From: Bolinopsis microptera
Taxonomy: Eukaryota; Ctenophora; Tentaculata; Lobata; Bolinopsidae
DNA: 28,203 nucleotides
Direction: 5' to 3'
NCBI RefSeq assembly: GCF_026151205.1
Contig: NW_026971852.1
Location: 1 to 28,203 of the forward strand
Part shown: piece after piece, positions 1,528 to 19,830 of the stretch
How positions within the stretch are numbered: position 1 is the first letter of the stretch
Layout of the letters: every line of letters starts with the position of its first letter
The notes under the pieces: model-generated
Database searches by the model: none
What the model was told of the DNA's origin: nothing
What the model saw: only the letters and a program-made list of their open reading frames with translations
Program-made: the position numbers and the translations under genes

Positions 1528-4500
1528 CTGTGTAAAATTAACCGTGATTATATCAGGCAATTATCGGGCAATTATTAGGCAATTATCGGGCAATTATCAG
1601 GCAATTATCGGGCAATTAAGACCACTAAACTGAGTAAATTTTAAGGAGGTGAGATTGTAAGAGTGAAATTTCAACGGGAAGGGAAGTGATCAACTTACCA
1701 ACGTTAGCTACAGTAATAACCCCTTCCTGGATAACGGCTACACAAGCGGTAGTGCCACTTCCGTACCCCTCTCTCTCATCAAACTCTGGGGGAACGTCAT
1801 CATCGTCACTATCCTCTTCTGATGACCCCTCCTCTGACCCCTCTTCGTCCTGGAGAACATTATAAATATTACAAGGCTTGTTTATTCAATATCCACATAA
1901 TACTAACTAGAGTATTGCCACATTTGTTGATATTTCAGGATTATGATCGGTTAACATCATCGAACTAACCGAATCGTCCTCGTCAGTCATTTCTGCCTCT
2001 TCCTCTTCCTCTTCATCAGATTCCTCTTCACCCTCACCATTCTTACTCTCGTCCCCATTTGCTGAAAATGGAGCAAGTCGTGTGAGAAAATCACCTTATT
2101 CAAATAAAATCACCTTATTCCAGTAAAATCGAACAAGTCAGCTCAGGAAAGGTAAAATGTTAGTTTTCAGGCGGCAAATCCTGCTCCTTGATGTTGGATC
2201 TTTCTGTTTGATATCTACTAACCAGTCGTCTCGTCCGCGCCGTTTTTCTTTGAAGGGGAACTACTTTCAGATTCTGAATCTTTCTGAAATGTTTAAGGTT
2301 AGCGAATTAATTCAAAAGACGCACTGTAGCTGTACTGTATTCGTGGTACAAAGGGGATGATACATAGTTTATCAATATCAGTATATTATCATACGTCAAC
2401 AGAAAAATAACATCTTGAATACGCACTCCGTTTTTGACGATTTCCTTCCCATTTGCAGCTGATCCAGCGCTTGCAGGCTCTCCACCGCCTTGTAAGATAT
2501 CAGGAACTTCCACCTTAGCCTTCTTTCCTTTCCCGGATCCTTCAAAGTTGCCTTCTTTCTCCGCCATTTCTTCTTCCATGCACTCTTTGACTGGAAATAA
2601 GCCGTTTAGAAATCACAATTGGCAATTTACATCAGAAAGGTCGGTACAGTGAGCGTTCTGGAATTTTAGAACCTTTATTTTTGTGCTTTCAACACACTGA
2701 TTCGGGTGCATTTCATGCCGTTCAACTAGAAGCATAAATTAAATACTAACATTTTTGTTTGTATTTGGCGAGCAGGTCCACAAGTGGCAGCTGGGCCTCT
2801 TCGTTCAGCTCCTCACATTCTTTGATCTTATCTTCCATTCCTTCTTCATCTTCATCGTCTCCTTTAGTACCTTAGATACAACAAAAGATGAAAGTAATTG
2901 ACTCGTTTGTAGTTTTCTACGCAGTACTAATCAGATTCACGTTAGACACAAATTGGGGGGGGGGGGGGGGGGGGCTGACCATAATATTGAAGTACATTAA
3001 AATGTAGGTTTTTTCCCGATTTAGGGCAGGGGATATACTTTAATATACTCTAATATACTTAAATTTATCCCTATCTTTTTACCTAAAACAAAAATCGCTG
3101 CACACAATATGCTTGAAATGCAAATCTTAATCGATTCCGAAAATTTCATACAGAAATATTGAAAACTTATGGAGTTATTTTAATTTTAATGAAGTCATTA
3201 AATTGGCTAGTATCCCGAACCGAGATATTACATGTGCAATTTTGTTCATGGAGGTCTTTTTACTTAGTATCCACTATTCAACAGATATTGAGCTATATTT
3301 TTCACACAAAGTTAGTCTCATTCAAAAATATTGAAATTTGATCGAATTTTGGGTAAAAGCTTTCAAATTTGTTGCGTATGCCCAAATATGGGCATATGGT
3401 TTGAAGCTCATAACTCATCCATTTTTTGACCAAACTGGATGTAAATTCATGTACTAGTCCAAAAACAGGCTTATCTTGCAAATCTAAATGAAGAATATAG
3501 CTAGACTAATTTTGGGTATATTAAAGTATATTAAAATGTAGGTTTTTTCCCCGATTTAGGGCCGGGGATATACTTTGATATAATTAAATATGGTCAGCCC
3601 CCTCCGGCCCTCCCCTCCCCAAATAAAAAGTAGAATTGTCAAAAATGATGACAGTTCACCAATATAACCAAACTACGAGAATTAACAAGTAACAATGCGT
3701 ATAATTCCACTGACCTGCCAGCGTCTGCAATTCATCAGCCGTTTCCTCCAACACAATCTGCTTATCAACAGCCAGGAAAGTTGTTTTCAGAGCTTGCTCG
3801 ATCTTGCCATCAGTAAAATCGTACTGTGTTTTAAGGAGCATTGGAAGGTATTTAGCGACGTAGAGAGCCACCTCGCCTCCACCGTGGCCATCGTATACGG
3901 CAAACAGTGCCGAATTGTCTGTCAGGTCAGGAACACAGCTCATTGCATCCTGGAGATGATTTATTTAGAGCGATGATGTGATCTGTTTAGCAGTCAAAGG
4001 GGAATCTCGCTGAATGTCAAAGCGCCACGAATTACGAAATTGTGTCAAAGTTGATGAGAAGTGTGCTCACTCACATGCACGAGGGAAGACACTGCAGAAG
4101 ATTACTATATTTTCAACCTGATTAAATGACAATAACTTCTTGTTCACTGTTCAGTACCAATATCTAGAAAAGCGGATACCTATATTCTATAAGCCCATTT
4201 TGTAATTGTGGCCGGTGCCGCCAACGTACGCGCAAATATTACATTTTCGCGCGCTCGCGTCTTAATTGAACACGAAGCGCGGACGATATTGAATTTATGT
4301 CGACCGCGTCTGCAGTAATGGCAAAGACAGAAGACGTTTCCCTGAATTTTGTAGTGGATTTTGTAGTGGATTTTGCGCGCCGAACGTACGTTACAATATT
4401 TATCATTGTAGAATCTACGACGGTAGAAGTCAGAAGTCTCAATAAACTGCTCGTACTTATACATTTATAGAAACTTATAAGATATGAAAATCTAAGTAAC

Positions 4501-7500
4501 ACATCCACCCCAGTCAGGCCACCCATCCCAAATAGCTTGAAATCTGTGACAAATCCCTGAAAATCCAGAATGAGAATCTTGACCCCTGAGGGGATTTGTG
4601 TTGCTGAGTATTTGAAACATGTTTGGTGGGTAAATAGGTAGTACATATCCCTAACCATCACAAAGACCAAGCTCTTGAACCACTCAAGCCACTCCCAGAG
4701 GCCATGCCAATCCCAAAATTACCGAAATCCAGCTAAAATCCAGACTTTAAAATCTTTACCCCTGTAGTGCTTTTATGTTCCGGGGTAGGTGGGACCTGTT
4801 TTAGTTTTAAAATGGGTTCTACCTGTCCCAAACCATCATAAAAATCAAGTTTCGACCTCTCAACCCACTCAGGCCACTCCCAGGGGCCACGCCCATCCCA
4901 AAATTACCGAAATCTAGCTAAATCCAGACTTTAAAATCTTTACCCCTGTAGTGCTTTTATGTTCCGGGGTAGGTGGGACATGTTTTAGTTTAAAAATGGG
5001 TTCTACCTGTCCCAAACCATCATAAAAATCAAGTTTCGACCTCTCAACCCACTCAGGCCAATCCCAGGGGCCACGCCCATCCCAAAATTACCGAAATCCA
5101 GCTAAAATCCAGACTTTAAAATCTTTACCCCTGTAGTGCTTTTATGTTCCGGGGTAGGTGGGACATGTTTTAGTTTTAAAATGGGTTCTACCTGTCCCAA
5201 ACCATCATAAAAATCAAGTTTCGACCTCTCAACCCACTCAGGCCACTCCCAGGGGCCACGCCCATTCCAAAATTACCGAAATCCAGCTAAAATCCAGACT
5301 TTAAAATCTTTACCCCTGTAGTGCTTTTATGTTCCGGGGTAGGTGGGACCTGTTTTAGTTTTAAAATGGGTTCTACCTGTCCCAAACCATCATAAAAATC
5401 AAGTTTCGACCTCTCAACCCACTCAGGCCACTCCCAGGGGCCACACATATCCCAAAATTACCGAAATCCAGCTAAAATCCAGACTTTAAAATCTTTACCC
5501 CTGTAGTGCTTTTATGTTCCGGGGTAGGTGGGACATGTTTTAGTTTAAAAATGGGTTCTACCTGTCCCAAACCATCATAAAAATCAAGTTTCGACCTCTC
5601 AACCCACTCAGGCCACTCCCAGGGGCCACGCCCATCCCAAAATTACCGAAATCTAGCTAAAATCCAGACTTTAAAATCTTTACCCCTGTAGTGCTTTTAT
5701 GTTCCGGGGTAGGTGGGACATGTTTTAGTTTAAAAATGGGTTCTACCTGTCCCAAACCATCATAAAAATCAAGTTTCGACCTCTCAACCCACTCAGGCCA
5801 CTCCCAGGGGCCACGCCCATCCCAAAATTACCGAAATCTAGCTAAAATCCAGACTTTAAAATCTTTACCCCTGTAGTGCTTTTATGTTCCGGGGTAGGTG
5901 GGACATGTCTTAGTTTAGAAATGGGTTCTACCTGTCCCAAACCATCATAAAAATCAAGTTTCGACCTCTCAACCCACTCAGGCCACTCCTAGGGGCCACG
6001 CCCATCCCGAAATTACCGAAATCCAGCTAAATCCAGACTTTAAAATCTTTACCCCTGTAGTGCTTTTATGTTCCGGGGTAGGTGGGACATGTTTTAGTTT
6101 TAAAATGGGTTCTACCTGTCCCAAACCATCATAAAAATCAAGTTTCGACCTCTCAACCCACTCGGGCCACTCCCAGGCGCCACGCCCATCCCAAAATTAC
6201 CGAAATCCAGCTAAAATCCAGACTTTAAAATCTTTACCCCTGAAGTGCTTTTATGTTCCGGGGTAGGTGGGACATGTTTTAGTTTAAAAATTGGTTCTAC
6301 CTGTCACAAACCATCATAAAAATCAAGTTTCGACCTCTCAACCCACTCACATCCACAACCTTCCGAATGTAGGTACGGACTTCAAAAAACCGAAAAATAT
6401 ACAAAAGTCAAAAGTCAGTGGGCATACGTTGGCCTTAATAGCTCCGCTGTGTTTTACATTTGAGAGCTGTTACTTTGCAGATGGCATACTGTTCTTACTG
6501 GTTCGAGGATTCTGTCGTAAATATTTGAAAATTCGAATATTTTAGACCACGCCCATTCGATATTAAAACACCTATTATATTGTTTTCTCTGAACATGCTG
6601 AACGCCTATTTTTTTTCAGAGACGGTAGATTATTAAATGTTGCATATGATCCGAAAACATGAGGCAAAACGGATTAGAAATGAAAAAGTTATCAAGCATT
6701 TTCTGTATCTCGTTAACAACATTGACTGGGTGATTATGTAACACCGTGACACGACACCTTAATTGGGCACCCTTAACAATTCCCATAATGTTTAACGGAG
6801 TAGTTAACGGGGTCACCTAATCACGTGATTAGGTAAACCAATCACCTGATCACACGTAATGAATAAACTCGTTATGCTTCATATCTCTGTCATCTGAGGA
6901 GCAGTTCTAATTTTTTTTTCAGGACAAACGTAATTTGAATGGCCAAACACAATTCAACAAAATTTAGCTCGATTCGACTATCCAAACTATCAAATAAATG
7001 CAAAAATGAACCTTCATCCGAAAAAAAATAACTAAAATATTTATCGATTTGACAAATTCCTCGAACCAGTGGTAGTAGTAAGTCATAGGTACCAGAAAGA
7101 ATTATTACAATTGGGCACTCAGTGACTAAGCTATTAAGGCCAACGTATGCCCACTGACTTTTGGGCCACCCTGTATTTTCGGCTCAGAATGATCAGGGTA
7201 GCATGAAACATGAACAAAAGTAGTTTCCAGAAAAACTTTGAAAAATTTTGACTTAGAAAATTTTCAGTCCGAGTCATTCTCGATACGTACCTCTGAAAGC
7301 AGAGCTCCCGCTTCCGAGCTCGTATTGCGAAGGGGAGGCCTGCCTTCCGAGATCGCATTACAATGGGGAACCATCGAGTCCAAAATCGTATATCGAACTT
7401 CGAAAACCGAAAAAAATATTTTCGGCTCAGAATGATCAGGGTAACATGAAACATGAACAAAAGTAGTTTCCAGAAAAACCTTGAAAAATGTTGACTTAGG

Positions 7501-10500
7501 AAATTTTCGGTCCGAGTCATTCTCGATACGTACCTCTAAAAGCAGAGCTCCCGCTTGCAAGCTCGTATAATTGCGAAGGGGAGGCCTGCCTTCCGAGATC
7601 GCATTACAAAGGGGACCCTCGAGTCCAAAATCGTATATTTTCCGAAAGGGTAGGTGCGGACTTCGAAAACCGAAAAAAATATTTTTGGCTCATAGTGATC
7701 AGGGTAGCATGAAACATGAACAAAAGCAGTTTCCAGAAAAACTTTGAAAAATTTTGACTTAGAAAATGTTCGGTCCGAGTCATTCTCGATACGTACCTCT
7801 GAAAGCAGAGCTCCCGCTTCCGAGCTCGTATTGCGAAGGGGAGGCCTGCCTTCCAAGAGCGCATTACAAAGGGGAACCCTCGAGCCGAAAATATTTTTTT
7901 CGGTTTTCGAAGTCCGCACCTACCCTTCGATATACGATTTTGAACTCAAGTCAAAAATTTTCAAAGTTTTTCTGGAAACTACTTTTGTTCATGTTTCATG
8001 TTACCCTGATCATTCTGAGCCGAAAATATTTTTTTCGGTTTTCGAAGTTCGATATAAGATTTTGGACTCGAGGGTTCCCCATTGTAATGCGATCTCGGAA
8101 GGCAGGCCTCCCCTTCGCAATACGAGCTCGGAAGCGGGAGCTCTGCTACCAGAGGTACGTATCGAACCGTATCGAGAATGACTCAGACTGAAAATTTCCT
8201 AAGTCAAAATTTTTCAAGGTTTTTCTGGAAACTACTTTTGTTCATGTTTCATGTTACCCTGATCATTCTGAGCCGAAAATATTTTTTTCGGTTTTCGAAG
8301 TTCGATATACGATTTTGGACTCGATGGTTCCCCATTGTAATGCGATCTCGGAAGGCAGGCCTCCCCTTCGCAATACGAGCTCGGAAGCGGGAGCTCTGCT
8401 TTCAGAGGTACGTATCGAGAATGACTCGGACTGAAAATTTTTTAAGTCAAAATTTTTCAAAGTTTTTCTGGAAACTACTTTTGTTCATGTTTCATGCTAG
8501 TTGCTACCCTGATCACTACTTTTATTCTTGTTTCATGTTACCCTAATCATTATGAGCCAAAATATTTTTTTCGGTTTTTTGAAGTCCGTACCTACATTCG
8601 GAAGGTTGTGGATGTGAGTGGGTTGAGAGGTCGAAACTTGATTTTTATGATGGTTTGGGACAGGCAGAACCCATTTTTAAACTAAAACATGTCCCACCTA
8701 CCCCGGAACATAAAAGCACTACAGGGGTAAAGATTTTAAAGTCTGGATTTAGCTGGATTTCGGTCATTTTGGGATGGGCGTGGCCCCTGGGAGTGGCCCG
8801 AGTGGGTTGAGAGGTCGAAACTTGATTTTTATGATGGTTTGGGACAGGCAGAACCCATTTTTAAACTAAAACATGTCCCACCTACCCCGGAACATAAAAG
8901 CACTACAGGGGTAAAGATTTTAAAGTCTGGATTTAGCTGGATTTCGGTCATTTTGGGATGGGCGTGGCCCCTGGGAGTGGCCCGAGTGGGTTGAGAGGTC
9001 GAAACTTGATTTTTATGATGGTTTGGGACAGGCAGAACCCATTTTTAAACTAAAACATGTCCCACCTACCCCGGAACATAAAAGCACTACAGGGGTAAAG
9101 ATTTTAAAGTCTGGATTTAGCTGGATTTCGGTCATTTTGGGATGGGCGTGGCCCCTGGGAGTGGCCCGAGTGGGTTGAGAGGTCGAAACTTGATTTTTAT
9201 GATGGTTTGGGACAGGCAGAACCCATTTTTAAACTAAAACATGTCCCACCTACCCCGGAACATAAAAGCACTACAGGGGTAAAGATTTTAAAGTCTGGAT
9301 TTAGCTGGATTTCGGTCATTTTGGGATGGGCGTGGCCCCTGGGAGTGGCCCGAGTGGGTTGAGAGGTCGAAACTTGATTTTTATGATGGTTTGGGACAGG
9401 CAGAACCCATTTTTAAACTAAAACATGTCCCACCTACCCCGGAACATAAAAGCACTACAGGGGTAAAGATTTTAAAGTCTGGATTTAGCTGGATTTCGGT
9501 CATTTTGGGATGGGCGTGGCCCCTGGGAGTGGCCCGAGTGGGTTGAGAGGTCGAAACTTGATTTTTATGATGGTTTGGGACAGGCAGAACCCATTTTTAA
9601 ACTAAAACATGTCCCACCTACCCCGGAACATAAAAGCACTACAGGGGTAAAGATTTTAAAGTCTGGATTTAGCTGGATTTCGGTCATTTTGGGATGGGCG
9701 TGGCCCCTGGGAGTGGCCCGAGTGGGTTGAGAGGTCGAAACTTGATTTTTATGATGGTTTGGGACAGGCAGAACCCATTTTTAAACTAAAACATGTCCCA
9801 CCTACCCCGGAACATAAAAGCACTACAGGGGTAAAGATTTTAAAGTCTGGATTTTAGCTGGATTTCGGTCATTTTGGGATGGGCGTGGCCCCTGGGAGTG
9901 GCCCGAGTGGGTTGAGAGGTCGAAACTTGATTTTTATGATGGTTTGGGACAGGCAGAACCCATTTTTAAACTAAAACATGTCCCACCTACCCCGGAACAT
10001 AAAAGCACTACAGGGGTAAAGATTTTAAAGTCTGGATTTAGCTGGATTTCGGTCATTTTGGGATGGGCGTGGCCCCTGGGAGTGGCCCGAGTGGGTTGAG
10101 AGGTCGAAACTTGATTTTTATGATGGTTTGGGACAGGCAGAACCCATTTTTAAACTAAAACATGTCCCACCTACCCCGGAACATAAAAGCACTACAGGGG
10201 TAAAGATTTTAAAGTCTGGATTTAGCTGGATTTCGGTCATTTTGGGATGGGCGTGGCCCCTGGGAGTGGCCCGAGTGGGTTGAGAGGTCGAAACTTGATT
10301 TTTATGATGGTTTGGGACAGGCAGAACCCATTTTTAAACTAAAACATGTCCCACCTACCCCGGAACATAAAAGCACTACAGGGGTAAAGATTTTAAAGTC
10401 TGGATTTAGCTGGATTTCGGTCATTTTGGGATGGGCGTGGCCCCTGGGAGTGGCCCGAGTGGGTTGAGAGGTCGAAACTTGATTTTTATGATGGTTTGGG

Positions 10501-13500
10501 ACAGGCAGAACCCATTTTTAAACTAAAACATGTCCCACCTACCCCGGAACATAAAAGCACTACAGGGGTAAAGATTTTAAAGTCTGGATTTAGCTGGATT
10601 TCGGTCATTTTGGGATGGGCGTGGCCCCTGGGAGTGGCCCGAGTGGGTTGAGAGGTCGAAACTTGATTTTTATGATGGTTTGGGACAGGCAGAACCCATT
10701 TTTAAACTAAAACATGTCCCACCTACCCCGGAACATAAAAGCACTACAGGGGTAAAGATTTTAAAGTCTGGATTTAGCTGGATTTCGGTCATTTTGGGAT
10801 GGGCGTGGCCCCTGGGAGTGGCCCGAGTGGGTTGAGAGGTCGAAACTTGATTTTTATGATGGTTTGGGACAGGCAGAACCCATTTTTAAACTAAAACATG
10901 TCCCACCTACCCCGGAACATAAAAGCACTACAGGGGTAAAGATTTTAAAGTCTGGATTTAGCTGGATTTCGGTCATTTTGGGATGGGCGTGGCCCCTGGG
11001 AGTGGCCCGAGTGGGTTGAGAGGTCGAAACTTGATTTTTATGATGGTTTGGGACAGGCAGAACCCATTTTTAAACTAAAACATGTCCCACCTACCCCGGA
11101 ACATAAAAGCACTACAGGGGTAAAGATTTTAAAGTCTGGATTTAGCTGGATTTCGGTCATTTTGGGATGGGCGTGGCCCCTGGGAGTGGCCCGAGTGGGT
11201 TGAGAGGTCGAAACTTGATTTTTATGATGGTTTGGGACAGGCAGAACCCATTTTTAAACTAAAACATGTCCCACCTACCCCGGAACATAAAAGCACTACA
11301 GGGGTAAAGATTTTAAAGTCTGGATTTAGCTGGATTTCGGTCATTTTGGGATGGGCGTGGCCCCTGGGAGTGGCCCGAGTGGGTTGAGAGGTCGAAACTT
11401 GATTTTTATGATGGTTTGGGACAGGCAGAACCCATTTTTAAACTAAAACATGTCCCACCTACCCCGGAACATAAAAGCACTACAGGGGTAAAGATTTTAA
11501 AGTCTGGATTTAGCTGGATTTCGGTCATTTTGGGATGGGCGTGGCCCCTGGGAGTGGCCCGAGTGGGTTGAGAGGTCGAAACTTGATTTTTATGATGGTT
11601 TGGGACAGGCAGAACCCATTTTTAAACTAAAACATGTCCCACCTACCCCGGAACATAAAAGCACTACAGGGGTAAAGATTTTAAAGTCTGGATTTAGCTG
11701 GATTTCGGTCATTTTGGGATGGGCGTGGCCCCTGGGAGTGGCCCGAGTGGGTTGAGAGGTCGAAACTTGATTTTTATGATGGTTTGGGACAGGCAGAACC
11801 CATTTTTAAACTAAAACATGTCCCACCTACCCCGGAACATAAAAGCACTACAGGGGTAAAGATTTTAAAGTCTGGATTTAGCTGGATTTCGGTCATTTTG
11901 GGATGGGCGTGGCCCCTGGGAGTGGCCCGAGTGGGTTGAGAGGTCGAAACTTGATTTTTATGATGGTTTGGGACAGGCAGAACCCATTTTTAAACTAAAA
12001 CATGTCCCACCTACCCCGGAACATAAAAGCACTACAGGGGTAAAGATTTTAAAGTCTGGATTTAGCTGGATTTCGGTCATTTTGGGATGGGCGTGGCCCC
12101 TGGGAGTGGCCCGAGTGGGTTGAGAGGTCGAAACTTGATTTTTATGATGGTTTGGGACAGGCAGAACCCATTTTTAAACTAAAACATGTCCCACCTACCC
12201 CGGAACATAAAAGCACTACAGGGGTAAAGATTTTAAAGTCTGGATTTAGCTGGATTTCGGTCATTTTGGGATGGGCGTGGCCCCTGGGAGTGGCCCGAGT
12301 GGGTTGAGAGGTCGAAACTTGATTTTTATGATGGTTTGGGACAGGCAGAACCCATTTTTAAACTAAAACATGTCCCACCTACCCCGGAACATAAAAGCAC
12401 TACAGGGGTAAAGATTTTAAAGTCTGGATTTAGCTGGATTTCGGTCATTTTGGGATGGGCGTGGCCCCTGGGAGTGGCCCGAGTGGGTTGAGAGGTCGAA
12501 ACTTGATTTTTATGATGGTTTGGGACAGGCAGAACCCATTTTTAAACTAAAACATGTCCCACCTACCCCGGAACATAAAAGCACTACAGGGGTAAAGATT
12601 TTAAAGTCTGGATTTAGCTGGATTTCGGTCATTTTGGGATGGGCGTGGCCCCTGGGAGTGGCCCGAGTGGGTTGAGAGGTCGAAACTTGATTTTTATGAT
12701 GGTTTGGGACAGGCAGAACCCATTTTTAAACTAAAACATGTCCCACCTACCCCGGAACATAAAAGCACTACAGGGGTAAAGATTTTAAAGTCTGGATTTA
12801 GCTGGATTTCGGTCATTTTGGGATGGGCGTGGCCCCTGGGAGTGGCCCGAGTGGGTTGAGAGGTCGAAACTTGATTTTTATGATGGTTTGGGACAGGCAG
12901 AACCCATTTTTAAACTAAAACATGTCCCACCTACCCCGGAACATAAAAGCACTACAGGGGTAAAGATTTTAAAGTCTGGATTTAGCTGGATTTCGGTCAT
13001 TTTGGGATGGGCGTGGCCCCTGGGAGTGGCCCGAGTGGGTTGAGAGGTCGAAACTTGATTTTTATGATGGTTTGGGACAGGCAGAACCCATTTTTAAACT
13101 AAAACATGTCCCACCTACCCCGGAACATAAAAGCACTACAGGGGTAAAGATTTTAAAGTCTGGATTTAGCTGGATTTCGGTCATTTTGGGATGGGCGTGG
13201 CCCCTGGGAGTGGCCCGAGTGGGTTGAGAGGTCGAAACTTGATTTTTATGATGGTTTGGGACAGGCAGAACCCATTTTTAAACTAAAACATGTCCCACCT
13301 ACCCCGGAACATAAAAGCACTACAGGGGTAAAGATTTTAAAGTCTGGATTTAGCTGGATTTCGGTCATTTTGGGATGGGCGTGGCCCCTGGGAGTGGCCC
13401 GAGTGGGTTGAGAGGTCGAAACTTGATTTTTATGATGGTTTGGGACAGGCAGAACCCATTTTTAAACTAAAACATGTCCCACCTACCCCGGAACATAAAA

Positions 13501-16442
13501 GCACTACAGGGGTAAAGATTTTAAAGTCTGGATTTAGCTGGATTTCGGTCATTTTGGGATGGGCGTGGCCCCTGGGAGTGGCCCGAGTGGGTTGAGAGGT
13601 CGAAACTTGATTTTTATGATGGTTTGGGACAGGCAGAACCCATTTTTAAACTAAAACATGTCCCACCTACCCCGGAACATAAAAGCACTACAGGGGTAAA
13701 GATTTTAAAGTCTGGATTTAGCTGGATTTCGGTCATTTTGGGATGGGCGTGGCCCCTGGGAGTGGCCCGAGTGGGTTGAGAGGTCGAAACTTGATTTTTA
13801 TGATGGTTTGGGACAGGCAGAACCCATTTTTAAACTAAAACATGTCCCACCTACCCCGGAACATAAAAGCACTACAGGGGTAAAGATTTTAAAGTCTGGA
13901 TTTAGCTGGATTTCGGTCATTTTGGGATGGGCGTGGCCCCTGGGAGTGGCCCGAGTGGGTTGAGAGGTCGAAACTTGATTTTTATGATGGTTTGGGACAG
14001 GCAGAACCCATTTTTAAACTAAAACATGTCCCACCTACCCCGGAACATAAAAGCACTACAGGGGTAAAGATTTTAAAGTCTGGATTTAGCTGGATTTCGG
14101 TCATTTTGGGATGGGCGTGGCCCCTGGGAGTGGCCCGAGTGGGTTGAGAGGTCGAAACTTGATTTTTATGATGGTTTGGGACAGGCAGAACCCATTTTTA
14201 AACTAAAACATGTCCCACCTACCCCGGAACATAAAAGCACTACAGGGGTAAAGATTTTAAAGTCTGGATTTAGCTGGATTTCGGTCATTTTGGGATGGGC
14301 GTGGCCCCTGGGAGTGGCCCGAGTGGGTTGAGAGGTCGAAACTTGATTTTTATGATGGTTTGGGACAGGCAGAACCCATTTTTAAACTAAAACATGTCCC
14401 ACCTACCCCGGAACATAAAAGCACTACAGGGGTAAAGATTTTAAAGTCTGGATTTAGCTGGATTTCGGTCATTTTGGGATGGGCGTGGCCCCTGGGAGTG
14501 GGTTGAGAGGTCGAAACTTGATTTTTATGATGGTTTGGGACAGGCAGAACCCATTTTTAAACTAAAACATGTCCCACCTACCCCGGAACATAAAAGCACT
14601 ACAGGGGTGAAAAGCACTACAAATCCACTACAAAATTCAAGGAAACGTGCTCTCGCAAAGATTAGAACTAGCAGGAGTACTACCCTCAGGCTTACATCGA
14701 CAGAAACTAGACTCAGATGCGACCGATCGAAGATACTCCGCAGAAAAAGCAGAAGGATACCTAGTGGATTATTCACGGGGTTCCTACAATAACACTTACA
14801 TGACAATCGTCAGTTACCAGTATCCAAGAAGCTGGCCCAGTCCGTGCACCAGTCCACGGACTACTTATGACATGAAGGTTAGAAGATCATATGAATGATA
14901 TCTTGGATGCAATTGGTAACGTTGTAAATTACTGAATGAAGACAAAGATTACGATTGATTAAATGAGGTATACAATATACATAAGTCATTCGATTTCTAT
15001 GGAGTATTATCAATTACCACTATCAGCAACGACAACAACTATTCCAATTCCTGAAACGGTTACGGTCTAGTAATAAACGAAAGAAGGACCCACGGCCTCC
15101 ATATTAGAGAACGCTCGAGACTTCCTATTCCAGAAAAGAAAAAAAAACCTTTTAAAGAACTCCATGTCCTGTCCCTTTCCATTCGGAGCTGAGGGGACTG
15201 ATTGAGGAGAAGCAAAGTTAGAATGGTCTCTGGCGTCAAAAGCGGTCACAGGGTGGTATGTGGAGCAGGATATAACATCATGTCCTATAATGCTAGCCGT
15301 AAGTAATTGCATCCAAGATACCATTCATATGATCTGTTTACCATCATGTCATAATTAGTTCGTGGACTGGATCGGGCTTCTTTGATACTGTCCCCAATTG
15401 TTCACGGAAACCTATATTCCCTAGTTTTAATGTAAGTTGAACCAATAAAAATGTTCGCTACCATTTTGCATTAACCTGGTTTCCAGTTGCGGACATAAGA
15501 CAAATTTTAGAGGGCAGCAAAATAATCGAGAGTGGGGGTGACAAATGGGAACCGTTGCAATATCAAGTAATGCACACATAAAGACATAAGATGTCTATCA
15601 TGATCATGAAGGTACATTTATAATACCCCGCTTTACTGCGCCCCGATTTAACACAAACCGGGGTTTTACTGTACTTAACTTGATAGTTCTCTTGGTGGAC
15701 AAGCATGTTGCGCTGTACTCAGTACTGGTTCTAATAAGTTTATTATCGGATGTTTACCTATAATTATTATGATATGAATATTTAGTGTAATGGCAATCAA
15801 TCTCCTTAAAATTTACCTTATTTCACAAGCCACGGACAGTAAAAAAGACTTAAAAGTAAATAAGTGAACATAGACAATGAGAGAGATAACAGAAAGATAA
15901 CACGGACAATGAGAGAGATAACAGAGGGATAAGAATGAGAGAGATAACAGAGAGATAAGAATGAGAGAGATAACAGAGAGATAAGAATGAGAGAGATAAC
16001 AGAGAGATAAGAATGAGAGAGATAACAGAGAGATAAGAATGAGAAAGATAACAGAGGGATAAGAATGAGAGAGATAACAGAGAGATAAGAATGAGAGAGA
16101 TAACAGAGAGATAAGAATGAGAAAGATAACAGAGGGATAAGAATGAGAGAGATAACAGAGAGATAAGAATGCGAGAGATAACAGAGAGATAAGAATGAGA
16201 GAGATAACAGAGAGATAAGAATGAGAGAGATAACAGAGGGATAAGAATGAGAGAGATAACAGAGAGATAAGAATGAGAGAGATAACAGAGAGATAAGAAT
16301 GAGAGAGATAACAGACCTCGTTAGCAACCCTCCATCCCTGCATACTGCTAGCACCGTATTTCAGTCCCAACTTTGATATTCCGTCGATTACCTCCTTCTC
16401 CGTAACTGGGGACTCCAGATATCCGCTCATTACAGCTCCCAT
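1272..16442 (-). CDS. PPM1G: PPM1G-like PP2C-family protein phosphatase (3' end beyond window)
   Basis: This is a metal-dependent Ser/Thr phosphatase of the PP2C family. The vertebrate orthologue is nuclear and acts on splicing factors and histone chaperone substrates. Exons, in order: 16317-16442, 3715-3949, 2751-2870, 2427-2590, 2223-2283, 1970-2061, 1699-1849, 1272-1527. Every junction is GT-AG and all phases fit, giving 1205 coding bases (about 401 residues). Visible: MGA start (possible N-myristoylation at Gly2), SSMQGWRV, metal-binding Glu42-Asp43, [11 protein letters not shown] (about 60-70), a central Glu/Asp-rich insert (about 240-285) characteristic of PPM1[20 protein letters not shown] (Asp318), SEDHKPE and [16 protein letters not shown] (about 358-373). 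The last exon(s), with the two C-terminal metal-binding aspartates, must lie left of base 1. Intron 1 is 12,367 bp; the others are 120-844 bp. Confidence 0.94.
1556..1618. repeat. 11-bp tandem repeat in PPM1G intron 7
   Basis: Nearly six copies of ggcaattatcg. The last two bases of the unit vary between cg, ta and ca, giving an alternating higher-order pattern. It lies about 30 bp upstream (in gene sense) of the exon 8 acceptor. Confidence 0.92.
1699..1849 (-). CDS. PPM1G: PPM1G exon 7
   Basis: 151 bp. It finishes the acidic stretch ([18 protein letters not shown]), then enters the second half of the catalytic fold: [20 protein letters not shown]. It ends in phase 1 inside the VGDSR motif. 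Donor gtaagt. Confidence 0.93.
1970..2061 (-). CDS. PPM1G: PPM1G exon 6 (acidic domain)
   Basis: 92 bp encoding the core of the acidic domain, with a long Glu run ([16 protein letters not shown]). Acceptor ttttcag, donor gttagt. The acidic insert is the distinguishing feature of PPM1G among PP2C enzymes. Confidence 0.88.
2223..2283 (-). CDS. PPM1G: PPM1G exon 5
   Basis: A 61-bp microexon encoding a Ser/Asp/Glu-rich stretch ([20 protein letters not shown]). Acceptor catttcag, donor gttagt. Phase 0 in and phase 1 out, which fits both neighbouring exons. Confidence 0.82.
2427..2590 (-). CDS. PPM1G: PPM1G exon 4
   Basis: 164 bp starting [15 protein letters not shown] and continuing through a low-complexity Gly/Lys/Ala-rich linker to EIVKNG. 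Acceptor tttccag, donor gtgcgt. The region matches the poorly conserved insert between the two halves of the PP2C fold in PPM1G. Confidence 0.85.
2751..2870 (-). CDS. PPM1G: PPM1G exon 3
   Basis: 120 bp, phase 1 to phase 1. It encodes an acidic linker ([13 protein letters not shown]) and a helix-like stretch ending LLAKYKQK. Splicing from acceptor atctaag to donor gttagt keeps the frame. Confidence 0.85.
2952..3621. mobile_element. Non-autonomous DNA transposon (TIR with subterminal direct repeats) in PPM1G intron 2
   Basis: The ends are inverted: a G-run then GGGGCTGACCATA on the left (to about 2983), and TATGGTCAGCCCC then a C-rich tail on the right (about 3594-3621). Just inside each end lies a ~58-bp block in direct orientation (about 2991-3048 and 3529-3588), containing attaaaatgtaggtttttt and gggatatactt. 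The interior has no gene. Part of it (about 3150-3460) is related, in reverse orientation, to 26745-27110. The 18-base G homopolymer at about 2956-2974 probably grew by slippage from a mixed G-rich terminus like that on the right. Confidence 0.7.
3715..3949 (-). CDS. PPM1G: PPM1G exon 2
   Basis: The exon begins with DAMSCVPDL after the acceptor atctccag, which completes the E-D metal-binding pair. It contains [19 protein letters not shown] and ends in phase 1 (LAG) at the donor gtcagt. Confidence 0.93.
4498..6343 (-). repeat. Left satellite array, 185-bp unit, about 10 copies
   Basis: The landmark gttccggggtagg recurs at 4777, 4961, 5146, 5331, 5516, 5701, 5886, 6070 and 6255, spacing 184-185 bp. 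The outermost copy (about 4498-4690) is strongly diverged; the inner ones differ by scattered single-base changes. Relative to the right array (read in the opposite sense) this arm carries different diagnostic bases, for example acctgtccc where the right arm corresponds to gcctgtccc. No coding potential. Confidence 0.95.
6402..7173. mobile_element. Mariner-like MITE inserted in the left arm
   Basis: A 772-bp segment flanked by TA on both sides (6400-6401 and 7174-7175). The ends carry 35-bp perfect inverted repeats (6409-6443 with 7129-7163). The right terminus read inward is CAGGGTGGCCCAAAAGT, the style of IS630/Tc1/mariner termini, which insert at TA. The outer few bases of the left terminus are altered (caaaagt). 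Removing it restores ccgaaaaaTAttttcggctc, close to the intact repeat at about 7405-7430. The interior has no transposase. It contains an 18-bp palindrome, cctaatcacgtgattagg, near 6813-6830. Confidence 0.85.
7176..8570. repeat. Inner inverted cluster of ~250-bp repeats
   Basis: Three units in one orientation start at 7176, 7421 and about 7681 (landmark ggctca-tgatcagggta). From 7885 the same unit runs in reverse at 7885, 8022 and 8272, plus a partial copy to 8570 (landmark ttaccctgatcattctgag). The units are 245-260 bp. The longer ones have an extra tattttccgaaagggtaggt segment. Many overlapping reading frames stay open through the repeat in several frames, which is a property of the repeat and not evidence of a protein. 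Confidence 0.92.
8621..14608 (+). repeat. Right satellite array, 184-bp unit, about 32.5 copies
   Basis: ggttgagaggtcgaaactt recurs every 184 bp from 8621 to 14501, then a partial copy follows. By reading, the copies are essentially identical. Exceptions are one extra T at about 9852 and a 9-bp loss in the last full junction (near 14500). Compared with the left arm the unit has fixed differences (ggtcatttt versus ggtaatttt; gggacaggcag versus gggacaggtag). No coding potential was seen. Confidence 0.97.
14819..15397. mobile_element. Inverted-repeat element (MITE- or foldback-like)
   Basis: About 95 bp at 14819-14914 is imperfectly inverted at 15307-15397. Shared blocks include agtcca-cgaacta-ttatgacatga and agatcatatgaatg-tatcttggatgcaatt. 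The ~390-bp interior has no recognisable gene; its open frames show no known motif. No clear target-site duplication is visible, so the outer limits are approximate. Confidence 0.65.
15880..16315. repeat. 26-bp minisatellite at the PPM1G exon 1 donor
   Basis: About 16 copies of gagagataacagagagataagaatga with a few substitutions (agaaagata, gagggata, gcgagag). It begins within a base or two of the splice donor at 16316. On the gene strand it forms a long C/T-rich tract. The coding frame of exon 1 stays open through it, but the hydrophobic repeat peptide is unlikely to be real protein. Confidence 0.95.
16317..16442 (-). CDS. PPM1G: PPM1G exon 1
   Basis: 42 codons start at an ATG at 16442 and end in phase 0 with ...GWRVANE before the donor gtctgt. 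The start matches the known family N-terminus (MGA...). The exon ends on the first residue of the Glu-Asp metal-binding pair. The donor runs directly into the 26-bp minisatellite. Confidence 0.93.
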
Positions 16443-16728
16443 CTCGACAACTTGCTAGTGTTAATAAGATTTTAAATACTATGTTATATTGTAAGTCGCC
16501 GTATTAATTTGTACAGTGAAGCTGCTAAAACAAATTATTTACAAATACCAAACATATTCTAAACAACTTATTAACAATCCCTTATAGCTCAACTCGGTGA
16601 TTCGATTTTAATAAGACAACATTATAGCAAATAAAATTTAGTGATTAAAGACAACAAAATTATGTTAAAAGCCCATTAGTGGGATTAGTACAATAGTAAA
16701 AGATTAAAATGCTACTTCAAACAATTTA
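16443..16728 (-). promoter_or_regulatory. RTEL1-PPM1G intergenic spacer (3' UTR of one, 5' region of the other)
   Basis: 286 bp between the RTEL1 stop codon and the PPM1G start codon, both on the minus strand. It is AT-rich and has no clear TATA box. An AG acceptor-like site (cactag) lies about 12 bp before the PPM1G ATG. RTEL1 transcription must terminate here, and PPM1G must either start here or be co-transcribed. Confidence 0.6.
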
Positions 16729-16730
16729 TT
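16725..16730 (-). terminator. Polyadenylation signal of RTEL1 overlapping the stop codon
   Basis: AATAAA on the minus strand overlaps the TAA stop (ATATAATAAATTG). It is the only AATAAA on this strand between the two genes, so the RTEL1 3' UTR may be only about 10-30 bases long. Confidence 0.5.
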
Positions 16731-18120
16731 ATATTAAACCTTTCTCTGACAAAAATTTGTCGAATGTTTCCTTATCTTTATCCTTAAGAAATATTCTAAA
16801 ACCTTTCAATAAGTCCTTGTGATTTGCCATAAACAAATCTGTAACATTGTCGATAAGTTTCACGATATTCTTTTCTGTCTTATACTCCTTCACGACCCCT
16901 CTGAATACTTCATACTCAGCGTCAGATAACGAAATTTTTAATGTTGCAGAGAAATTTTGGGATTTTGTCACTTTAGGTTGTTCTCTCTGGGTAGAAGCCA
17001 GAGGGCTACTCATAACGGATGTTATTTGCGACAAAGAGTTGAGGTTATTTTCTTTATCTTGTTTGGTAACAAGTCTGAATTTCTTTCTGGGATTTCTGAT
17101 AGCCTCAGGTGTCTTGTAGTCCGTGGTAGATCGACTGCTTACCGGAGACATAGAAGGAGCAAAGGAGTAATCAGCCGAACCGGTACCGTTCAATGAGCTT
17201 ATCAAGCTTACTCTCTTATCAGTTCGAGCCATTTTCCTGGGAGGCGGCGTAACTTCATGTGTAGAATCATCCAAGTTTGGTGCTGCAAATCTTTCTTTGG
17301 GTAAGTCCTTCTCGGTGGATCTAAAGGCATCATACATGTTACTCAGTCGGTTGGTATTTGATGATTTAACAGGTTCTTCATTTTCTTCTTTCTCACATAC
17401 CCTATTAACATGAAGTTTAAAGAATTGGGATAGTTCACGTAAACCGGAACCAAACTGCTCGTTTACCTTTGCAAATCCTCGTGCCCACTTAGGTAGCTCA
17501 TCAACATTTGATCTGAATGAAAATCTTTTGTCCATAAAAATAACTGCCCCAAAGTCATCTTTGTGTCGAATAACTCGGCCGACAGCCTGGTTCACAGCTC
17601 GGGAGCTCTGTTGAATGTACCACTCTTGACCGTTCAACGAATTTGGTCTGTTTCTCTTCTGTTGATCCAGATAGTTGATTTTAGCACTCACTTTAGGGTC
17701 GTTTTTCGGTGGAAAAGGCAGGCCTGTTATGATTACAGCCCGTCCATGCATGTCCGCAAAATCAATACCTTCACTGGCTTTACCTCTGCAAACTGCAAAC
17801 AGCATTGCTCCCGTAGCTCCATCTGTAGGGTTTCTGACTTTGTCATCAAATTCACTCATCAATTTTGCCATTTCGTTCTTAGATCGTGGCTCTGTGAAGC
17901 AGTGTTTAGTTTTCAGCATACGAGAGTAAATATTGGTGGTTTGCCAAGATTGGATGGTGTTGTTCATTACTCCGTAGCTGGGAAAGAAAACCAAAACTCC
18001 GTTGGGAATTACTCTGAGTAGATTAACAATGGAAGTGCCCAAAGAGGAGAGGTATTTTGGGTTGCTTCTATTTGCGTATGTTGAAAGAAAATCAGTTCCA
18101 TCACAGCCTTTACAGATTAT
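16729..18120 (-). CDS. RTEL1: RTEL1 coding exon 2
   Basis: 463 codons plus TAA. It begins IICKGCDGTDFLSTY after the acceptor atttcag, and carries the second helicase lobe (motifs IV-VI), a Ser/Lys-rich linker with NLS-like basic patches (NPRKKFRLV) and the terminal harmonin-like domain. Confidence 0.95.
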   Translation of the reverse strand: MICKGCDGTDFLSTYANRSNPKYLSSLGTSIVNLLRVIPNGVLVFFPSYGVMNNTIQSWQTTNIYSRMLKTKHCFTEPRSKNEMAKLMSEFDDKVRNPTDGATGAMLFAVCRGKASEGIDFADMHGRAVIITGLPFPPKNDPKVSAKINYLDQQKRNRPNSLNGQEWYIQQSSRAVNQAVGRVIRHKDDFGAVIFMDKRFSFRSNVDELPKWARGFAKVNEQFGSGLRELSQFFKLHVNRVCEKEENEEPVKSSNTNRLSNMYDAFRSTEKDLPKERFAAPNLDDSTHEVTPPPRKMARTDKRVSLISSLNGTGSADYSFAPSMSPVSSRSTTDYKTPEAIRNPRKKFRLVTKQDKENNLNSLSQITSVMSSPLASTQREQPKVTKSQNFSATLKISLSDAEYEVFRGVVKEYKTEKNIVKLIDNVTDLFMANHKDLLKGFRIFLKDKDKETFDKFLSEKGLI

Positions 18121-19830
18121 CTGAAATGGAAACGATTATACCATAAATAAGATGCATTATAGATATTACAACTTTGATTTTATATCCACAAAATTGATTG
18201 TATCGTATTTGACGAAATACAAACACATCACAAAATACTGGCAAATAATGAGAAATAATGAGCTTCCAATTAAATGTTATATCCAATGATAGATATTGCA
18301 GGATTAGTACAGATCCAAATTGTAAAAATGTGTGAAACGTACCTGCACAGATATTTGACTTGGCTGAATGACATGAGGATTCTGTAAAGTGATAGGAAAA
18401 GGTATCCTCAATTCACAAGAAAAGGAATTTATTGGAGAAAGAGTACCACTGGTTAGTATAATGGAGTAAACACCACTCTTCACAAACTCCTCCATGGCTA
18501 GCCCAGGACTAAAACACCAGTAAGAAAGCTTGGTAATGAACTGTGGGGCAACTGATTCTATATTTTTATCAACCCAAGTCGAGGCTTTCCCTGACTTACC
18601 ATATTTTGAATCCTTTTTCTCCTTCGACACATAACAAACATACTGGTGTTTGGAGGCCTCGCTCTGGTCGAGAGTCAAATCAAGTATCTGCATAAAGTTG
18701 TTGAGGACAACAAACGTGTTACCCACTAGTTTATTAGAACTGCTTAGAGATAACACTGATTCCATCTTTTGAAGAACCTCCGTAATCAACCCTTTTGTCT
18801 CTTGATTCACATTTATGGACACAAGCAGGTTTTTAAAAGTAGACTTGTCTATGATGTTACCTGATCCTTTTACTTCTAACTTATTGAATTCTCTTTCAAG
18901 AGACAGGAAAATAGCTTTCATAGTCAAAACATCCTCTTTTGTCAATTCACCACTGTCATAACTTGGCCCCGAACTTGTGCTAGCAGACCCATCGTCATCC
19001 AATATCCTTTGTAATGTCAACTGACAGTTTTCTATACAGTTAGCTATGTCTAAAGAAGTTATTTCAAATGAATACGATTCCTCACAAACCTTTTCTATGT
19101 TGTGAGCTTCATCGAAGATAACAATGGAATTTTCAAGTGTTATGTTTTGATTTTTCCTAGTTTTGCTATCAATAAGATAGTTATATGGCATGAAGATTAT
19201 ATCAGCACGTCTCAAGAGTTCTCTTGATGAATAATATGGACACATGGTCTTCTCCTTTGAAACTGAAACAAGTTCCTCAATATCCAGTATCTCCCCAAAT
19301 ATTGCGTCATTTATTTTCTTATCTACGTTAGTGTAGTGCACACAAGATCTTTCCTTCACTTTCGCACGGCAGGTGTGGATTTTTGCCATGTTGTTCTCGA
19401 TGTTCATCACTTTGGGATGTAAACAGAGCTGATCTCTGGAGCCGAGCACACTCACTTTTGGTTTATATATCGTATTCTTGAGCTCGTTGACAACTTGTGA
19501 AATCTGAGAGTGAGTCCTTGATGCATATATAATTTTAGGAATAGCATTAAATCCCTCTAATGCTTGATTGTTCCCAGCAGCTTCATCCAATCCGGCAATA
19601 TTAGCATTAGCTGCTATTCCACTGAGCTGAAGTTTGGCAATGTAAGTAAGTCGCCATGCAAGAACTGAGCACAGAAGGCACAATGTTTTACCAGTTCCAG
19701 TTGGAGATTCCAGAATTGCATTTTGTTTTGACTGAAGAGCTCTGATTACATGTCCCATGTAATCTTCCTGACATTTATAAGGAGAAAATGGAAAGTCAAC
19801 ATCTACATTGTTTACTGTCACTTGGGGCAT
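16729..19830 (-). CDS. RTEL1: RTEL1, regulator of telomere elongation helicase 1
   Basis: An XPD-family 5'-3' DNA helicase with an iron-sulfur cluster. RTEL1 unwinds D-loops, T-loops and G-quadruplexes in the nucleus. Two coding exons: 18343-19830 and 16729-18120, with a 222-bp GT-AG phase-0 intron, giving 959 residues. The start ATG at 19830 gives MPQVTVNNVDVDFPF, matching the family N-terminus. Visible: Walker A ESPTGTGKT (41-49, Lys48), four cluster cysteines at 136, 154, 163 and 197 with family spacing, DEAH box at 240-243, ILTSGTLSP, VFFPSY, ASEGIDF (motif V) and QAVGRVIRH (motif VI). The C-terminus (about 890-959) is one harmonin-N-like helical domain ending FLSEKGLI. The human protein is longer (about 1,220 residues or more), with a second such domain and further C-terminal sequence not present here. 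Confidence 0.96.
18343..19830 (-). CDS. RTEL1: RTEL1 coding exon 1
   Basis: 496 codons from the ATG to ...PSQISVQ before the donor gtacgt. It holds the first helicase lobe with Walker A, the iron-sulfur domain, the DEAH box and the arch region. The TTG at 19839 is in frame but lies upstream of the splice acceptor, so it is not the start. Confidence 0.95.

Follow-up and report, generated by a model that had tools for sequence, protein, structure and literature searches.

The locus and its second haplotype

The window analysed here is a stretch of 28,203 nucleotides of Bolinopsis microptera DNA that makes up the whole of contig C93. Two PP2C profile matches lie on its minus strand (Pfam; 3656-3964 and 1268-1537) and, as judged from the sequence, fit PPM1G, while a segment near 16,316-16,442 on the same strand, recognised by eye in the list of open reading frames (ORFs), is presumably the N-terminal exon of that gene. 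A large mirror-image block lies between these PPM1G-like exons and would thus sit in the first coding intron (intron 1), which is where an earlier reading of the sequence alone had placed it; the flanking PP2C matches and the exon recognised by eye are consistent with this location. RTEL1 is also found on the minus strand, with matches to DEAD_2, ARCH_RTEL1 and Helicase_C_2 (Pfam). The window opens with 206 bp of (CT)n, and an open frame at 335-934 on the plus strand has a weak GIY-YIG match (E 0.00059, below the Pfam cut-off) and is taken, by eye, to resemble the endonuclease of a Penelope-like element. A 26-bp tandem array at 15876-16315 adjoins the N-terminal exon of PPM1G.

Searches covered a genome assembly of 264.65 Mb in 232 contigs. 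The surroundings of the block align to the chromosome-size contig C11, with 98% identity immediately to its right, 100% at window positions 16,700-18,300, and 96-97% to its left. Window 1-28203 is an unplaced second haplotype of C11:9,639,800-9,647,000 (L029). C11 likewise has (CT)n, and its 26-bp array (about 5267-6103 of L029) is seemingly longer than that of the window.

The C11 allele is an empty site reading ...GTAATG GCAAAGA TTAGAAC..., and the window reads ...GTAATG GCAAAGA [10,327 bp] GCAAAGA TTAGAAC.... The window therefore holds a clean, target-duplicating insertion of 10,327 bp, 4328-14654, flanked by a 7-bp target site duplication (TSD). GCAAAGA occurs once in C11 and in two copies around the insertion, so 4328-14654 is the true extent of the element, which is carried by one assembled haplotype. 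Such precise insertion against an allelic empty site is characteristic of cut-and-paste DNA transposons of the terminal inverted repeat (TIR) order. The contig is short and unplaced, and satellite arrays assemble poorly, which could point to an assembly or chimeric-read artefact, or else to an inverted duplication formed in situ that was never mobile. This explanation deserves almost no weight: the empty allele and the TSDs exclude an assembly chimera, and like elements, most with a TSD of their own, are found on many chromosomes. The mirror-image structure in the PPM1G intron is real and mobile.

Anatomy of the element

The features of the insertion are as follows.

4321..4327, no strand: left TSD, GCAAAGA, present once only in the empty C11 allele
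4328..14654, plus: whole foldback-like element of 10,327 bp including both ends, delimited by the allelic empty site and the exact L and R ends
4328..4361, plus: L terminus, 30/34 bp inverted to the R terminus
4351..4373, plus: two subterminal iterons GTAGTGGATTT (4351-4361 and 4363-4373)
4374..4679, plus: L-end subterminal region grading into degenerate satellite-like sequence
4680..6349, plus: left arm, an array of 185-bp satellite units in 9.0 copies, in which 8 iterons were found
6344..6393, plus: left junction of satellite and captured repeat, inverted without mismatch at 8571-8620
6348..8616, no strand: centre, captured 'B' repeat, palindromic, in units of ~250 bp
6409..7163, no strand: insert of ~0.75 kb, bounded by 32-bp inverted ends (6409-6440 / 7132-7163), within B on its left half
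8571..8620, minus: right satellite/captured-repeat junction
8616..14608, minus: right arm, an array of 184-bp satellite units in 32.6 copies, with 33 iterons
14592..14631, minus: three outermost R-side iterons, with 5' ends at 14631, 14620 and 14602
14621..14654, minus: R terminus, GAGAGCACGTTTCC...
14655..14661, no strand: right TSD, GCAAAGA, adjoining the insertion as judged against the empty C11 allele

The element begins with CAGAAG... at 4328 and closes with ...GCTCTC at 14654, and its terminal inverted repeats, like those of the TIR order, agree over 30 of 34 bp. The inner part of the L-end subterminal region is ~70-75% like the satellite units, and the third R-side iteron (5' end 14602) falls within the first unit of the right array. 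The two arrays, 4680-6349 (185 bp, 9.0 copies) and 8616-14608 (184 bp, 32.6 copies), are mutually inverted, as the sequence-only reading had claimed, and the 50-bp inverted boundary that it had reported (6344-6393 / 8571-8620) shows 0 mismatches. Its outer motif (4334-4361 / 14621-14648) is indeed inverted at 27 of 28 positions; the true termini, however, lie 6 bp farther out on each side. Within the centre, the ~250-bp B units run forward at 7185-7892 and in reverse at 7882-8588, and the insert at 6409..7163 is presumably a mariner-like MITE, a label applied by eye.

A genome-wide family

Exact L ends (CAGAAGACGTTTCC[CT]TGA) occur 95 times in the genome and exact R ends (GAGAGCACGTTTCCTTGA) 97 times; the reversed patterns used as controls gave 0 matches each. 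When facing ends up to 25 kb apart were paired by proximity, nearest first, 71 L/R pairs resulted, leaving 24 L and 26 R ends unpaired, and no L/L or R/R pair faced each other within 25 kb. The two ends are thus fixed and not interchangeable. Pairs span 218-21,099 bp (median 6,409; at least 3 kb in 47 of the 71), the largest being known from their end positions alone. Read from L to R, the family layout is a terminus, two iterons, a subterminal region of ~300 bp fading into degenerate satellite, an array, a centre, an inverted array, and an R terminus with two iterons.

Copies on many chromosomes repeat this arrangement, with an array and its inverted counterpart on either side of a centre and between an L and an R end, and such recurrence of arms, ends and order is far beyond chance. 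The search for other copies with the same order of parts that had been proposed from the sequence alone thus found them at other loci, and the genome-wide copies support a family of foldback-like elements with satellite arms. Inverted arms of tandem repeats are the mark of foldback-type elements; certain short copies have a single array or lack arrays altogether. A single array is seen in L034 and L035, two arrays stand back to back without the captured repeat in C1:25451763, L030 and L033, and the smallest copies, L037 and L038, hold no satellite unit or part of one.

Flanks were compared in 72 rows; as 17 of these have flanks already present in another row, the distinct flank pairs number 55. 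They are not all independent, as L032, L034, L035 and L036 come from one carrier repeat. An exact 8-bp TSD is present in 40 of the 55, and the window copy has 7 bp. A TSD of constant length is typical of cut-and-paste DNA transposons of the TIR order, and the family as a whole has been mobile. The 15 pairs with no exact 8-bp TSD include the 7-bp case of the window, two copies with a damaged L end, both pairs whose iteron cores disagree (see below), three flank pairs within one shared carrier repeat, L076 (also L116), where an 8-bp match is displaced by one base, and L092, whose TSD copies differ at a few bases. The absence is unexplained in L037, L038, L088, L106/107 and the duplicated site L031/L039. 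In the C7:9536 copy the inner L end is damaged, and its R end was paired by proximity with another L end 2.5 kb farther out.

The captured centre

Outside elements, the B repeat continues differently in 4/4 loci read. Since it exists independently with another continuation, it was captured by the element; the inner ~250-bp repeat is an independent and optional part, absent from C1:25451763, L030, L033, L092 and L093. The sequence-only reading was right that this repeat lies inside the arms; its treatment as an integral component did not hold. The 50-bp boundary was also rejected as a structural end of the element, because the repeat passes this point into other flank in 4/4 non-element loci; it is the junction of satellite and captured repeat. 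Allowing up to 3 mismatches, a 36-bp core of this boundary is found 160 times in the genome. Of 14 other loci, three (C5:4523, C6:17644 and C8:15252) resemble the window in having the boundary on either side of the repeat, and most of the rest have it on one side. Both junctions of the window are identical, so the inner part of one arm probably served as the template for that of the other after capture, an order of events deduced from this identity. L040-L043 and many other places hold a dispersed independent repeat with tandem units of 245-250 bp and a flank common to the four loci read; this repeat is the source of the captured centre.

Satellite arms

Right arms can be highly uniform: identical units number 30 of 32 measured in the window, 14 of 15 in C2:18032811 and 9 of 12 in C3:8016161, although consensus errors in satellite assembly may have inflated this uniformity. 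Left arms of the same three elements hold 7 distinct units of 8, 6 of 8 and 12 of 14, respectively, and right arms are less uniform in C3:17760 (8 distinct of 11), C5:1880 (15 of 18) and C5:4523 (3 of 3). The commonest right-arm unit is letter-identical in 5 of 8 elements compared, that of the window among them.

The arrays change in length. C5:4523891-4528322 is 99.0% identical to the window element over its first 1,468 bp and 97.9% over a longer shifted stretch, yet it has 4 right-arm units against 33 in the window element; the right array must therefore have grown or shrunk fast and recently. Unit consensus sequences are only 83-90% alike between the core classes described below, and the sharing of one arm layout by such diverged relatives indicates that the design is old.

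Iterons and core classes

A motif of ~12 bp, TTGTA[4-bp core]ATTT, is present twice at each element end and about once per satellite unit. In the window class, the pattern GTAGTG[GC][AT]TTT has 45 occurrences in the element and none in the remaining 17,896 bp of the window. The 10 copies on the left side are all on the plus strand and the 35 on the right side all on the minus strand, so that every copy points inward from its own end.

The core differs by subfamily (GTGG/GTGC, TGCG or GGGG) within an unchanged frame. In the other subfamilies TGCG or GGGG stands at L1, L2, R1, R2 and in the first unit, and in the window class the terminal core is GTGG, with GTGC, one base different, at R2 and in the satellite units. 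The commonest array-unit core of each class was GTAGTGC (450), GTATGCG (79), GTAGGGG (40) and, in a fourth class, GTAGTGC (37), as counted with a loose pattern that also matches elsewhere in the unit. Of 51 elements, 46 have a readable core at both ends (the other 5 are not readable at R by the core pattern), and 44 of the 46 carry the same core at both. One-base departures occur in L033, L085 and L128/129, and in L037 the cores agree, yet the L-end flank groups with the window class and the R end with GTGGb.

Between classes, substitutions accumulate in the core. TGCG and GTGGb differ at 14 of 20 core positions against 6 of 126 flanking ones, and in 5 of 6 class comparisons, each class being represented by one element, core and flank differ with p from 0.025 to 9.6e-11; these values treat repeated iterons as independent, which is wrong if one change spread by conversion, and they therefore describe concentration, not the number of events. 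GTGG and GTGGb show no core excess (2/20 core against 11/127 flanking, p = 0.69).

In a tree of L-end flanks with the cores left out, TGCG forms one clade (100/99), GGGG one group without support (43/36), and GTGG and GTGGb require 2 changes each, so the four classes need 4 changes where the minimum possible is 3, on a bootstrap that is not settled. In the elements sampled, TGCG therefore has a single origin and has since come to occupy the sites of its lineage. The two ends of an element have their core in common by descent, and L/R agreement alone is accordingly no proof of co-recognition.

These patterns bear on whether the iteron is read by a protein at all. The cores might be mere lineage markers of a mobile element, with homogenisation or gene conversion spreading neutral changes through an unread iteron; core class largely tracks lineage, as the TGCG clade illustrates, and strong homogenisation of arrays is possible, given the near-identical right-arm units of the window. 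Against this, change is concentrated in the 4-bp core, the surrounding GTA and ATTT being largely conserved, and the same core is also found in the L terminus, outside the arrays. The neutral explanation is hence rather doubtful.

Transposase and superfamily

Inspection by eye of the ORFs of 34 whole copies, 32 of them among the 71 pairs, revealed no recognisable transposase, and four frames of the window element have no Pfam match. The coding-size copies L030 (3.1 kb), L088 (2.6 kb), L089 (3.6 kb), L090 (3.5 kb) and L091 (4.5 kb) were read and hold no recognised transposase; they contain satellite, captured repeats or nested inserts. A peptide of L089 (1847-2230), taken by eye to be MULE-like, has no Pfam match and sits in a nested insert, both edges of which are apparently repeated in translation. 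Reverse-transcriptase-like open frames at C8:1827222 are, by eye, presumed to belong to a nested non-LTR element.

The length of the TSD here fits hAT, P or some Mutator relatives. MULEs usually duplicate 9-10 bp and the Drosophila Foldback element (FB) 9 bp, against 8 bp in this family. Descent by deletion from a Mutator-like transposon of the MULE, Foldback-NOF or Phantom type could appeal to the 88 PF10551 (MULE) matches in the genome; however, none of the 88 lies inside a paired element, a single one, 8.3 kb away, comes within 10 kb of an exact end (192 in all), and together with the shorter TSD this makes such an origin unlikely. In the hAT superfamily, distinct ends and subterminal repeats are typical and the target pattern is nTnnnnAn. 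A hAT derivative would account for the 8-bp TSD, the L terminus starting with CAGA, and the distinct ends and subterminal repeats of the family. Its R terminus starts with GAGA, however, and nTnnnnAn was found in 2/40 TSDs, where equal base use would predict 2.5, which leaves hAT unsupported by target preference; this assignment, too, is improbable.

Galileo, of the P superfamily, carries long TIRs whose tandem repeats hold extra THAP-domain binding sites (PMC3688188). Derivation from Galileo or another P element would agree with such repeats and with the 7-bp TSD of the window copy. The common TSD here is 8 bp (40/55 flank pairs), in contrast to the 7 bp given for Galileo in a second report (PMC3573991), and the P derivation is distinctly unlikely. 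A genome-wide profile search for PF21787 (P type) gave 0 matches, its positive control being equally silent.

Comparison with known systems

Tetris, a foldback transposon of Drosophila virilis, has TIRs of up to 1,735 bp with tandem repeats of ~220 bp and is likewise non-autonomous; its middle varies, it lacks conserved ORFs, its TSDs measure 8-10 bp, and its repeats build satellite arrays (PMC4079207). By description, the elements studied here differ in their longer arms (6 kb in the right array), their polar L and R ends, and class-specific iterons common to ends and units. FB and other foldbacks of Mutator type, as assigned in that report (PMC4079207), share the inverted tandem-repeat arms around a variable centre; the absence of MULE matches inside paired elements sets the present family apart, again by description only.

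Galileo resembles the family in its internally repetitive long TIRs, its diverged subfamilies and its chimeric copies without matching TSDs, as portrayed in two reports (PMC3688188, PMC3573991). Galileo also has copies bearing a transposase, of which none was found here, and a ~210-bp repeat in two or three copies where the present arms have up to dozens. In Arabidopsis VANDAL21, a short motif accumulates in tandem repeats and changes together with the cognate VANC protein, and this joint change within a subfamily is paralleled here; VANC is an anti-silencing protein that reads non-coding repeats (PMC5735166), whereas here the motif is also present at both termini. Galileo is the closest precedent for the arms and VANC/VANDAL for the joint change of motif and array. 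The satellite arms might similarly serve as a platform for an anti-silencing protein instead of a transposase, for which VANDAL21 and VANC offer the model (PMC5735166). The motif is also found no more than about 46 bp from either terminus, a position that transposase sites would be expected to take, and this makes such a role very unlikely.

Neither the Galileo nor the VANDAL report, in the portions available (PMC3688188, PMC5735166), describes termini and satellite units with one motif of class-specific core, and searches of the open-access literature returned no report of such a motif, no text with the two terminal strings or the iteron string, and no description of this family. A foldback element with satellite arms is a known kind; the class-specific iteron common to ends and units is the feature worth following.

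Interpretation

The insertion is best regarded, with a probability of roughly 0.8, as a non-autonomous foldback-like cut-and-paste DNA transposon in PPM1G intron 1 of one haplotype, whose iteron arms are putative arrays of binding sites. With the iteron present twice per end and about once per unit, the arm arrays multiply these putative sites. A transposase supplied in trans would bring together a single L and a single R end, and TTGTA[core]ATTT would be read by this enzyme or by a partner protein; the arms would thereby offer many more binding sites, and turnover of the tandem arrays could spread a new core through the sites of a lineage. A more specific proposal, offered tentatively and at somewhat less than even odds, is that the core acts as an address code: a class-matched DNA-binding protein, most likely a transposase, would read arms and ends, the arrays would be its binding platforms, and homogenisation would write a new address.

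It has long been asked why the arms of foldback transposons hold kilobases of satellite. In this genome, several subfamilies have units and both termini with a common motif, its core changed in step and its frame kept, so that the idea of arms as binding-site arrays becomes directly testable by core swaps. Under the address-code proposal, related transposons in one genome could stay separately controlled. The family spreads satellite arrays across chromosomes by transposition, and one of its insertions segregates inside a gene.

Copies of mixed or duplicated structure

Two elements carry discordant cores, L094/095 (C12:5161662-5167326; GGGG with GTGG) and L120/121 (C7:13825218-13837744; TGCG with GTGG), and neither has a TSD, as expected of recombinants; an exact 8-bp TSD is present in 36 of the 44 core-agreeing elements and not in the other 8. 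The tie between TSD loss and core discordance is suggestive only, with just two discordant pairs. Both are likely recombinants and possible marks of chromosome rearrangement. Short copies with a common flank pair or close variants of it (L032, L034, L035, L036, L044-L047, L052/053, L062-L065, L072/073 and L089) represent one insertion spread to many places by another repeat. A 12.9-kb end pair of the TGCG class with an exact 8-bp TSD (G000:C114:3192-16043) lies on another short contig, of 24.9 kb, and is perhaps a second insertion present in one haplotype. At G000:C5:13629782-13630449, three tandem L ends, 325 bp apart, are found at one element.
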